Below are positions 26,301-28,780 of a DNA stretch of 64,000 nucleotides, one piece after another (the stretch's first letter is position 1; each line of letters opens with the position of its first letter). The position numbers and the translations under genes are program-made. The stretch is from Calditrichia bacterium. GTDB lineage: Bacteria > Calditrichota > Calditrichia > RBG-13-44-9 > J075. The stretch covers positions 372,001 to 436,000 of the forward strand of contig JANQQU010000043.1 of NCBI GenBank assembly GCA_028284905.1, given 5' to 3'. Below the pieces are notes generated by a model that made no database searches, had not been told where the DNA came from, and worked only from the letters and a program-made list of their open reading frames with translations.

Positions 26301-26402
26301 TAAAAGATTATCATTCCTTTAAATTAATATAAACTAATATATTAACCATTGAATAAAGAAGCTTTATTCACGTTTACTAACCTAAAGATGGAAGGACTTC
26401 CT

Positions 26403-27011
26403 ATGTTGAAAAGATTTACAGCAATTATGATGATTCTTGGCTTGTTCCTGATGGTTACTAATGCTCAGGCGCAGTTGTCAATCAATAAAGGCCTGAAAGC
26501 TGGTTTGAATTCCGCTAACGTCAGCGTCGATCCTGACCAGAATTTTGAGCTGGGATCTCGTACCGGCCTGGCCTTCGGCGGTTACCTGGAAATCGATCCG
26601 CTTGGCCCGTTAGGTGTGCAGGCAGATGTGCTCTTTTCCCAGAAAGGGACGAAGCTTAGCCAGGGGAGCCAAGAATCAACTGTGAAGATTACATATATTG
26701 AGATTCCGGTGGTTGCAAAACTCAGCATTCCGCTGGCGCCGACGATGACTTATAATGTCCATGCCGGCCCGGCACTGGGCTTTAAGTTGAGCGAAGGATT
26801 TGATCCTGATCAGGATAACGGTGATGAAGATAGTTTCAAAAGCTCGGACCTGGGACTGGTTGTTGGCCTTGGATTGACTGTGAATGCCCTGGTTAGCCAT
26901 GTGCAAATCGATGCTCGCTATACGCTCGGTTTATCGGATATTAATGTTGAAGGCAGTGATTTTGAAGCCAAGAATCGTTCGTTGACCCTTTTGGTTGGAA
27001 TTGGCCTCTAA
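26403..27011 (+). CDS. PorT-like outer-membrane beta-barrel protein (paralogue 2)
   Basis: The ATG at 26403 (202 aa) follows AAGGA by eight bases and is immediately followed by a signal peptide ending TNAQAQ. The mature protein repeats the plan of the upstream gene: SINKGLKAGLNSANV, GGYLEIDPLGPLGVQADVLFSQKGT, YIEIPVVAKLSIPLAPTM, YNVHAGPALGFKLSEGF, SSDLGLVVGLGLT and RYTLGLSDI. It ends RSLTLLVGIGL. It is the second of two tandem copies of one ancestor, the divergence being largest in the loop regions and the leader. A rho-independent terminator follows, so the pair probably forms a bicistronic unit. Function unknown; PorT itself takes part in type IX secretion. Confidence 0.84.
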   Translation: MLKRFTAIMMILGLFLMVTNAQAQLSINKGLKAGLNSANVSVDPDQNFELGSRTGLAFGGYLEIDPLGPLGVQADVLFSQKGTKLSQGSQESTVKITYIEIPVVAKLSIPLAPTMTYNVHAGPALGFKLSEGFDPDQDNGDEDSFKSSDLGLVVGLGLTVNALVSHVQIDARYTLGLSDINVEGSDFEAKNRSLTLLVGIGL

Positions 27012-27059
27012 AAAATTGTTGGATTGTCTGCTTAATGCAGGCGTGATTTGATGACTTTA

Positions 27060-27100
27060 GCCGGGAAGCGCGGATATGTTCGCGTTCCCGGCTTTTTTGT
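27060..27100 (+). terminator. Rho-independent terminator after the tandem barrel genes
   Basis: GCCGGGAAGCGCG (27060-27072) pairs with CGCGTTCCCGGC (27081-27092, one mismatch/bulge), and is followed by TTTTTTGTTTT. It lies 50 bases after the second barrel gene stop. Confidence 0.9.
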
Positions 27101-27106
27101 TTTAGA

Positions 27107-27191
27107 AGAAATGTAAAATATCCAATATCCAATTTTCAATGTAAAAGTGCAGAAATGTAAAATATCCAATATCCAATTTTAAATGTAAAGG
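27107..27191. repeat. Tandem direct repeat (two copies, 44-base period) downstream of PAP2
   Basis: Two nearly identical units, 27107-27147 and 27151-27191, each contain AGAAATGTAAAATATCC followed by AATATCCAATTTT and AATGTAAA. The opposite-strand related pattern (TTGGACATTTTACATTGGG and TATTGGATATTGAC) occurs at 27211-27250, so the block is partly self-complementary. It lies between the barrel terminator and the 3' end of the PAP2 gene. Confidence 0.75.
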
Positions 27192-27254
27192 TAGGACTCA
27201 TCGCATATAATTGGACATTTTACATTGGGTGTTTTATATTGGATATTGACGCCT

Positions 27255-28028
27255 TTAAAGTCCGCGCACCCAATGCACCAAATACGCACAACCAACCCCC
27301 AGCGCCGCACCAGCAAGGACATCTGAAGGAAAATGCTTACCACCAGCAATCCGGGAAATCCCCGACCAGGAGGCAGCGCCCAGCGCAAAATAGCGTTGCG
27401 TTTTATTCGCTTTATTTCCTTTGCTTAGTAGATAGCTGGTGGCAATAGAAAAGGCAAAGGCAGTATCGCCGGAAGGCATCGAACGAAATGCCTCTCTTAG
27501 CCCGGCTTCGTCTTCCTCGAGGATTTTGTCTGTATAAAAAATGGGGCGGCGCCGGTGAAAAATCTCCTTGAATAAAACGCTAAACCCGACAGCGGTTAAT
27601 CCGGATTCAAACGATGCTCGGAAGTGGGAAAATCCGTTTGGTTGATTCCGCCAAAGATCCTGCCAGGAATAAAAGCCAAATGCCGCCAATCCTGTCCAGC
27701 CGGTTACTTGCCAGCCGATATTCTCGTCGTGAATTGTCCAGCGATCGAAGAAGGGAACTTCACTTTTCGCGCAGGGGGCACAGCCATTCAGATCTGCTTC
27801 CGGAAGAGCGTCTCCGATCATAATTAGGCCAACGCTGCCCAGCCAGATGGAGGCTTCCCGTAATCCGCTCAGGGGCACGCTGTTTGCTTTCTTAGCCGAG
27901 GCTGCCTCTGAAGAAATAAGCAGCCGTTGTTTGCTAAACGACAATTGATCGCTGTTTAATTGCGGGAAGGCTGATGAACATAAAACGAACATCAAGCTGA
28001 ATATTGTGATATTGATTTTTTTATTCAT
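27255..28028 (-). CDS. PAP2 family phosphatase
   Basis: An integral-membrane or exported type-2 phosphatidic acid phosphatase-like protein of 257 aa. A leader (INITIFSLMFVLCSSAFPQ) is followed by several hydrophobic helices. The three PAP2 signature blocks are all visible: KEIFHRRRP (KxxxxxxRP-like), SMPSGDTAFAFS (PSGxx, where the family usually has His; here Asp follows Gly), and SRIAGGKHFPSDVLAGAALG (SRxxxxxHxxxD). The replacement of the usual histidine of PSGH by aspartate is notable, since that histidine is the general acid. Substrate may be undecaprenyl pyrophosphate or another lipid phosphate. Repeat-rich DNA lies on both sides. Confidence 0.85.
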   Translation of the reverse strand: MNKKINITIFSLMFVLCSSAFPQLNSDQLSFSKQRLLISSEAASAKKANSVPLSGLREASIWLGSVGLIMIGDALPEADLNGCAPCAKSEVPFFDRWTIHDENIGWQVTGWTGLAAFGFYSWQDLWRNQPNGFSHFRASFESGLTAVGFSVLFKEIFHRRRPIFYTDKILEEDEAGLREAFRSMPSGDTAFAFSIATSYLLSKGNKANKTQRYFALGAASWSGISRIAGGKHFPSDVLAGAALGVGCAYLVHWVRGL

Positions 28029-28069
28029 AATTGGATTGCTTTGGTGGTTTGTTTTTTCTTTTTCCCAAT

Positions 28070-28180
28070 GCAGCCGCTTTGCGGCAGGATTGGGCGTTGT
28101 ACTGTATCGCCTTTGGCGAAAGTCTTTTGCGCCAACGAAGGTTTATGAAAGAATTCAAACAACGAACAACGATCAACGAA
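28070..28180. repeat. Intergenic block of short hairpins and an iterated CAACGA word
   Basis: Between the PAP2 start and the next stop lie short hairpins: GCCGC-TTT-GCGGC (28073-28085), TCGCC-TTT-GGCGA (28107-28119), and TTGGCG paired with CGCCAA further on. The last 22 bases (28159-28180) repeat AACGA three times: ACAACGAACAACGATCAACG. No coding function is seen. Confidence 0.55.
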
Positions 28181-28780
28181 TTATTCCACTTTCTTAATCA
28201 ATACCTCCGGCCCCAAGGAGCCTTTCAGTAGCTTGATTTTCGACTTGCTGGAAAAATGCCAGGGCAAATATTCGCTGGACGGTAAAGTGGTATCCAATAA
28301 TCCCATCCGCTGATAAGCTTCCGCGATGAGCTCGCTGCAGAATAAGGTAGACAGATCATGCCCATTGTCGCCAAAAGGGCCATCGTAAGCAGCTCTTAAT
28401 AATGTGATCATGTCATCGTCATAAGGACGCCCTTTTAACTCTTCCCGTAATGTGGAGAGTGATTTTAACATGGCATCGCTGCGCCTTAACTTTAGGAGGC
28501 GTACGGCAATGTTACCGTCATAACTTTTCACGCGTTGACTGAGCGGCACCAGTTGTACGCCTTTAGTCTCCTTGCCTGTGGCAATATCCCGGATATCATT
28601 TAAAACCGTCGACTCCCAGAGCAGAATGGTGCGTATTTCCTTTACCCGCACAACCATGCCGACATGGGACCAGGGACTTCGGGTTGCCCAGCGAATACCG
28701 ATGCTGAGACTGCTGCGCCCTCCAAACAGAACGATATCACCCGTTTTTAATTTCGATCGAATTTTTTCGTAAGCAGTCAT
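28181..28780 (-). CDS. YiiX-like permuted papain-fold (NlpC/P60 superfamily) hydrolase
   Basis: A 199-aa protein resembling the YiiX/YebB permuted NlpC/P60-like amidases or peptidases. The permuted active-site order is seen: the histidine in WSHVGMVV (about residues 38-45) comes first and the cysteine in LFCSELIAEAYQRMG (about 148-162) comes near the end. The entry motif TGDIVLFGGRSSLSIGIRWAT is typical. No signal peptide or membrane helix is present, so it may act inside the cell. Substrate is unknown. The start codon at 28780 lies in the divergent region facing the beta-galactosidase gene, and it stands upstream of PAP2 with a 152-base repeat-rich gap. Confidence 0.78.
   Translation of the reverse strand: MTAYEKIRSKLKTGDIVLFGGRSSLSIGIRWATRSPWSHVGMVVRVKEIRTILLWESTVLNDIRDIATGKETKGVQLVPLSQRVKSYDGNIAVRLLKLRRSDAMLKSLSTLREELKGRPYDDDMITLLRAAYDGPFGDNGHDLSTLFCSELIAEAYQRMGLLDTTLPSSEYLPWHFSSKSKIKLLKGSLGPEVLIKKVE

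Follow-up and report, generated by a model that had tools for sequence, protein, structure and literature searches.

Intergenic heptad hairpins of a Calditrichia bacterium and their link to S23/IVP four-helix-bundle genes

REPIN/RAYT systems combine short intergenic palindromes, present in many copies, with one protein gene that carries the same end sequences, and the RAYTs themselves are Y1 tyrosine transposases. Cyanobacterial STRR are heptanucleotide arrays in intergenic DNA, and we know of no element or protein partner described for them. S23/IVP proteins are four-helix bundles of solved structure whose function is not known, and no enzyme activity is known for them. The hairpin family described here, from a Calditrichia bacterium, shares with STRR the intergenic heptanucleotide arrays and with REPIN/RAYT systems the multi-copy intergenic palindromes and a gene with the same ends, although in this case the gene encodes an S23 four-helix bundle with no known catalysis.

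The same protein family is found within terminal complementary sequences in the 23S rRNA intervening sequences of Coxiella and Leptospira which carry an S23p reading frame, and the portion of PMC4990558 considered here terms these sequences selfish and quotes an older proposal that the S23p reading frame serves mobility. They are described there as lying in 23S rRNA and being excised by RNase III, whereas the present units are intergenic, with word-coded 7-base arms and many gene-less copies, and our copy lies between protein genes and not inside a 23S rRNA gene. The TAACTGA repeats of Beggiatoaceae, cyanobacteria and Bacteroidetes (MacGregor 2015, PMC4679880) belong to a word family that we also find (CAGTTAT), and are intergenic with a scattered phylogeny. 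As the passages of that paper used here have it, they are mostly direct repeats before start codons, with one indirect repeat among 170 sets and no protein partner, whereas the present arms are inverted, lie close to stop codons and flank an S23 gene. The GGGAATC and GGGGA(C/T)T heptads of Xanthomonas and Nostoc (Rehm 2015, PMC4692102) are likewise intergenic and near stops, and in the sections drawn on here many are ≤50 bp from stops, 70 and 75 convergent pairs are given for two Xanthomonas genomes, and the repeats are read as G-quadruplexes. It should be noted that X. campestris encodes an S23 protein (XCC0516). The terms 'S23' and 'four helix' are absent from the main texts of PMC4679880 and PMC4692102, and a search of full-text papers, few of them from subscription journals, listed none that joins S23 and heptads; this is weak evidence that the link is new, heptad repeats as such having been described without S23 in the main texts of these two papers.

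The hairpin beside the PAP2 gene and its family

The window, by which we mean the whole 64,000-nucleotide stretch of DNA analysed, contains a hairpin at 27107–27248 made up of two direct arm copies and one inverted arm. The first 5' arm (27107–27148, plus strand) is a direct repeat of a 7-base unit reading AATATCC AATATCC AATTTTC AATGTAA AAG, and the second (27151–27192, plus strand), which was also matched by the covariance model described below, is 95% identical to it at an offset of 44 nt. The inverted 3' arm (27210–27248, minus strand) reads AATATCCAATATAAAACACCCAATGTAAAATGTCCAAT on its own strand and is irregular, while the 5' arms end in AATGTAAAAG and AATGTAAAGG. A double repeat with a 44-base period and a partial reverse complement at about 27211–27250 had been reported in the first-pass annotation, and both were recovered, the latter as inverted partners of the 42-nt direct repeat at 27210–27226 and 27218–27248. 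Tandem Repeats Finder listed AATATCC ×2.4 at 27117–27133 and again at 27161–27177, and placed 7-base units on both sides of the PAP2 gene.

The hairpin separates two convergent genes, an outer-membrane β-barrel gene to the left (26349–27011, plus strand; Pfam PF13568 and PF13505) and the PAP2 gene to the right (27255–28028, minus strand; PF01569), whose stop codon is 7 nt from the inverted arm. Outside the element, a G+C-rich hairpin followed by T6 can be read off the plus strand at 27060–27098 and is likely to be the terminator of the β-barrel gene (the terminator scanner, with a loop limit of 8, does not list it). The window hairpin, whose arms are A+T-rich, is also absent from the sites of this intrinsic-terminator scanner under the same loop limit. 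No Rfam family reached its gathering score (the best were RF02583 Teg23 with 23.9 bits against 166, and RF01382 with 20.6 against 31), and a search of plasmid DNA with 27015–27260 gave nothing better than E 0.7 among the best 20 of 24 matches. A PAP2 paralogue region is located elsewhere in the genome (C67:9000–16000).

The far side of the PAP2 gene has different repeats. A one-armed CGTT (CAACGAA) tract on the minus strand (28133–28180; unit 28133–28139) includes AACAACG ×3.3 at 28158–28180, and directly abuts the TTA stop codon (28181–28183) of a YiiX-like C92 peptidase gene (28181–28780, minus strand; PF05708), as first suggested. Of the three small hairpins with TTT loops proposed for this region, we see two in 28029–28180: GCCGC-TTT-GCGGC at 28073–28085, from a sequence scan, and TCGCC-TTT-GGCGA at 28107–28119, from both a hairpin scan and the sequence scan. 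Tracts like the CAACGA tract recur elsewhere in the 2.17 Mb of genome scanned, and the window's inverted-repeat list holds no inverted partner for it. The tract would belong to another word family, as a remnant with one arm, and no gene was found for that family.

The words of the hairpin are not confined to this locus. The 14-mer TATCCAATATCCAA occurs seven times in the 8.55-Mb genome, two of these in the window (the reversed control has none), and the plan of arm, spacer and inverted arm is found at four of the other five places. When up to two mismatches are allowed there are six matches in the window, with 0.85 expected and none of 100 shuffles having six. We built a covariance model, R1, from 13 CAAT elements from which the window element was excluded, and when the best 150 of 3311 candidates were scored this gave 145 rows at no fewer than 75 distinct places in the 8.55-Mb genome. 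The window element belongs to this family (45.8 bits, E 1.4e-4; C61:399154–399247, equal to window 27154–27247). The 13 elements align as AATRTCC AATRTCC AATNYTC AATKTNC AATGTNG AAG with unrelated loops, and 139 of 150 CAAT arms have five 7-base steps, with the AAG end present in 110 of these.

In 1.94 Mb we counted 74 tracts of period 7, 59 of them intergenic, and 26 of period 8, all 26 intergenic, compared with 0 to 8 tracts for each of periods 5, 6 and 9 to 13; the 60 tracts of period 14 are a harmonic, and two low-complexity period-7 tracts had been removed before the count of 74. These densities are not genome averages, as the contigs (C42, C21, C3 and C10) were chosen for TATCCAA matches. 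An inverted flank partner was found for 27/74 period-7 and 9/26 period-8 tracts and a direct partner for six and one, respectively, whereas 3.5% of random intergenic flanks attain the inverted-partner score. The earlier description of dispersed low-complexity elements is right as to dispersal, while 'low-complexity' undersells the regular 7-base words; the connection with a protein could not be seen from the letters of the window.

Similar families are built on other 7- and 8-base words (CAGTTAT, GTTCAGA, ATTCCGC and AAATGGGC). Variation in five heptad families is mostly confined to two or three of the seven positions, giving CAGT+(TAT/GAA/TGT), GTTC+(AGA/AAA/AGC), ATTC+(CGA/CGC/GGA), CGTT+(GTT/GAT/CTT) and CAAT+(ATC/TTC and others), with an octad form A[AG]AT..GC; in this analysis phases were registered with reference words and the chi-square treats adjacent units as independent. 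Among 42 period-7 inverted repeats, ATTC words were found in both orientations, and the reverse strand never formed the 5' arm for CAAT, CAGT, CGTT or GTTC (0/42).

S23/IVP genes between inverted arms

Nine PF05635 (S23/23S_rRNA_IVP, four-helix-bundle) genes are among the matches listed in this genome, and eight of the nine have inverted flanks scoring at least 19 (the ninth, L339, scores 10.5), whereas none of 168 size-matched control genes attains a flank score of 14. The arm words differ from gene to gene: GTTCAGA (L337), TTAGGGGA (L338), AGGCTTT in weak form (L339), CAGTTAT (L340), a long arm without heptads (L341), ATTCCGC (L342), AAATGGGC (L344) and the related AGATGAGC (L345). The remaining gene, L343 (C33:48779–49075), lies between CAAT arms, which is the window's own word; the window hairpin has the same arms and a loop without a gene. 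Extra arm matches were found in 2.17 Mb for eight of the nine S23 loci, filling between 1 and 27 bins (300 bp each), with the loci's own sites partly included. No S23 gene among the nine listed was assigned to the CGTT word or to the 10-base CACGGAT word.

A second genome of the same class (G032) also has a small gene between hairpins, and its protein is TIGR02436, four helix bundle protein (S23/23S_rRNA_IVP). Tandem arrays of whole hairpins were seen right behind a reading frame at L321 (G031:C630) and L323 (G032:C30), with steps of about 112 bp and about 100 bp, respectively. Five chains are present in each of the solved S23 structures, 2rld and 2gsc (XCC0516), and the Xanthomonas S23p is a toroidal homopentamer according to the part of PMC4990558 used here. 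The Avd protein of diversity-generating retroelements was matched by two of ten S23 proteins, and this makes a link to reverse transcription worth considering.

We extended the comparison to plasmids of other phyla, taking 18 S23 loci from 41 rows so as to span genera. A flank score of at least 14 was attained by 14 of the 18 genes, compared with 25/306 for swapped flanks. The arm words included AATTCGT, AATTCAA, AATCCCC/AATCGTA, GAAAGTG, GATTTTA, CAGTGAC, GGGAAAA, TTAGCTT and GGGTGTA, in Cyanobacteriota, Spirochaetota and Chloroflexota, and the number of arm units in these other word families differs from five. Four further S23 genes, three of which attain 14, were found in stretches of a GTDB collection taken for the CAAT hairpin pattern (a single protein seeded this search of 75 stretches, and distant genes may escape it). 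Altogether 25 of the 31 S23 elements attain 14, and 25 are 7- or 8-periodic on both sides as against 2/168 controls.

Among the 25 elements with clear arms, similar proteins have similar words: the 16 pairs with a protein similarity of at least 0.5 have a mean same-sense arm score of 12.1 versus 6.15 overall, with an antisense score of 7.2, and none of 20,000 permutations was as high. CAGT words, for example, are common to the proteins of L340 from Calditrichota and L357 from Euhalothece. L352 is an exception in that its near relatives carry other words, and the rank correlation between protein and word over all pairs was not significant (0.077; 786/5000 permutations).

The unit of arm, gene and arm is missing from collinear relatives at four plasmid sites, all of them involving gene-bearing copies; the searches covered five plasmid loci (L346 to L349 and L358). 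The only clean site is that of L358 compared with L364, where 503 bp are extra, the flanks are 93–96% identical and ATG is found on both sides; compared with L368, the same locus has 510 bp extra and seven other bases. At the other sites, other bases stand in place of the unit: 25 for L349 (502 bp extra versus L366 and L369), 61 for L347 (586 bp versus L367, between cas2 and cas1) and 188 for L346 (422 bp versus L365). On cyanobacterial plasmids, CRISPR genes adjoin several of the S23 genes on one or both sides (L347, L351, L354, L359 and L361: cas2|cas1 twice, cas1, cas6|cas4 and cas10|cmr3).

Possible origins of the hairpins

Given the family membership of the window hairpin, its word structure, the association of gene and arms, the match between word and protein among similar proteins and the presence or absence of whole units on plasmids, we consider it probable that the window hairpin derives from a selfish S23-encoding element, of which it is a REPIN-like form without the gene, and that such copies are tolerated after stop codons. 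The full element would run from a heptad arm through an S23/IVP four-helix-bundle gene to an inverted heptad arm, each S23 gene having its own word and several of the words also occurring as gene-less hairpins in intergenic DNA. We infer that S23 rings read these words and drive their spread: the ring protein may recognise its own word through some four fixed positions per heptad, and may somehow bring about the copying or insertion of DNA enclosed by arms. Copies without a gene could then borrow the protein of a full copy, by analogy with the dependence of REPINs on RAYTs, and survivors would be found mainly between convergent genes or right after stops, where insertion harms little. That each subunit reads one heptad of the five-step CAAT arms is a guess only, as other families differ in number. 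The weak flanks of L339 (10.5), the long non-heptad arms of L341 and the CGTT and CACGGAT words which have no S23 gene all count against this explanation, and so do the other bases at three of the four plasmid sites, the non-significant rank correlation over all pairs, the exception of L352, the unit numbers other than five in other families and the fact that S23 has no known enzyme activity.

The arms might instead be older than the S23 genes or independent of them, and be targets in which such genes have settled rather than the ends of an element. An IS481-like insertion sequence lies in heptad arms at 10/10 of its readable flanks, four of which are CAAT hairpins of the model set (the call rests on words, lag-7 periodicity in the last 20 nt before the element being only 5 to 11 of 13), and this indicates that arms do attract insertions; the S23 gene of L323 also lies between complete hairpins and not between single arms. 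However, the clean empty site of L358/L364 has no prior arms, arms and gene come and go jointly, and similar proteins have similar same-sense words across phyla while the S23 genes of one genome differ in word, and we regard such settling as unlikely. Retention of the hairpins for RNA structure behind stops, as bidirectional terminators or 3'-end RNA stabilisers, would agree with their placement. Of at least 75 R1 places, 67 could be classed as 18 convergent, 42 tandem and 7 divergent, compared with 83, 531 and 142 of 756 gaps of at least 60 nt, and convergent gaps are enriched (18/67 versus 83/756, p 6e-4; divergent, p 0.10). The tandem places are nearer the stop in 27 of 42 cases (p 0.09), and heptad hairpins in tandem gaps are ≤25 nt from the upstream stop in 21/29 (genes were taken from a simple codon-score caller, which makes start distances rough and missed the S23 gene at C12:13455). 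In addition, the fold of 27105–27255 beats 199/200 shuffles (z −2.7 as DNA and −2.95 as minus-strand RNA), and arms, although preselected as the best inverted repeat, are more alike within an element than between elements (0.61 versus 0.42), with 16/40 beating all others. There was no sign of RNA-level selection in pair covariation, however, as 80.7% of cells pair in the 13 elements compared with 82.5% when partners are shuffled (493/500 at least as high), nor in the transcribed strand of tandem gaps, where 29 G.U and 38 A.C were counted (39 and 34 in comparison repeats, a weak test with little power). The β-barrel gene moreover already has its G+C-rich hairpin and T6. Our reading is that words are kept more than pairing, and we find an RNA role quite improbable; the first-pass proposal of 3' UTR structures is right about the position behind stop codons and finds no support in covariation or G.U counts.

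Plain slippage, in which 7-base tandem repeats rise and decay locally and template switching produces the inverted pairs without any system, is very improbable to our minds. Work cited in the portion of PMC4679880 used here ranks heptads first in frequency among the longer simple repeats of bacteria, and some of our tracts are long perfect arrays, but slippage sits poorly with ordered five-step arms common to at least 75 places, with variation at fixed positions only, with the lack of any reverse-strand 5' arm among CAAT, CAGT, CGTT and GTTC elements, and with the S23 link. A REPIN/RAYT system with a Y1 transposase would suit many-copy intergenic palindromes by stop codons, and the genome does have two Y1_Tnp genes, but no heptads were seen in the 3.3-kb loci around these and the arms surround S23 genes instead, making this explanation extremely improbable. 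The three readings offered by the first-pass annotation included mobile mini-repeats, and this is the best supported of them, given that the family is dispersed, that a gene is enclosed by the same arms, and that gene-bearing relatives are present or absent at collinear sites. Recombination sites, another of the three, would be a possible reading, and the IS481-like element does insert into such arms.

If the hairpins do derive from S23-encoding elements, a more general proposal can be made tentatively: bacteria may harbour a class of selfish element whose spread involves neither a known transposase nor a known recombinase. In this class a five-subunit S23 ring would read a private word, set by some four fixed positions per heptad along the arms, and every pairing of ring and word would make up a separate family that includes followers without the gene. 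We view this as possible, if somewhat doubtful. Heptad repeats have been reported piecemeal with no common cause and the function of S23 is a puzzle of its own, and if the pairing of S23 with words is true, both puzzles merge. S23/IVP proteins, rRNA intervening sequences and heptad repeats (STRR, TAACTGA and GGGAATC) would then have a joint account, which would extend to many of the intergenic repeats labelled 'low-complexity' and to orphan genes annotated as 'four helix bundle protein', and it might lead to a way for DNA to spread with no transposase involved.

Distribution of the hairpin pattern and other repeats

The pattern CCAATATCCAA-N10-40-TTGGATATTGG was found in 75 stretches of the GTDB collection compared with about 0.5 expected for uniform bases, in records titled Chloroflexi, Lentisphaerae, Saprospiraceae, Omnitrophica, Gemmatimonadetes, Calditrichaeota, Verrucomicrobia, Kiritimatiellae and others, though several of these stretches are unlike heptad elements by eye (L170, L193, L200, L216, L219 and L220 among them). 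Ten are convergent, 25 tandem (15 nearer the stop), three divergent, 17 within reading frames, 20 at edges and one far, and placement by stop codons is weak in this set. With the genome itself included among both the counted and the matching, CAATATCCAATATCCAA was found in 3/30 genomes, the CAAT hairpin pattern in 2/40, R1 in 14/40 and the TAACTGA triplet in 1/40. We rejected viral spread, as viral contigs gave no match to the CAAT hairpin pattern and no relative of the L343 protein was confirmed, and also the idea that words travel together, since of nine other word patterns only one (CACAGAG) matched one of the 75 GTDB stretches. The Lentisphaerae MAG AS06rmzACSIP_375 (L168, L174, L175, L178 and others) carries numerous CAAT hairpins that are almost identical and whose loop is conserved, several of which adjoin a 6-base ATCGAA-like repeat, and these are seemingly a recently amplified subfamily.

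Other repeats were noted in the Calditrichia genome. Inverted repeats with a 10-base period (CACGGAT plus three) form a dispersed family (C13:30827, C13:53485, C13:231813 and C21:14366), and a non-heptad palindrome, CATCGCGAGGCGCTTTTTGCCGAAGCGATC, is found in many copies (including C13:19783, C13:107218, C6:14661 and C10:35068). CCTAAAG arrays, whose word resembles the weak arms of L339, break the assembly at four contig ends (the end of C42, the start of C13, the start of C44 and the end of C78); a telomeric nature was rejected as both orientations occur at contig ends and the array is also found inside a contig (C3:41378). The IS481-like insertion sequence is 1.5 kb long with ends TGTTATGTGTTGTTAAGTCGTACCCC (C14; L059:1–1494), and its transposase scores 93.8 bits, short of the 224 set as cut-off for the family. 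Copies of it also meet the contig ends of C1, C4, C6, C8, C10, C20, C30, C78 and C79, and C30 and C14 look like opposite sides of a single copy with a duplication of 4 bases, ACCC.
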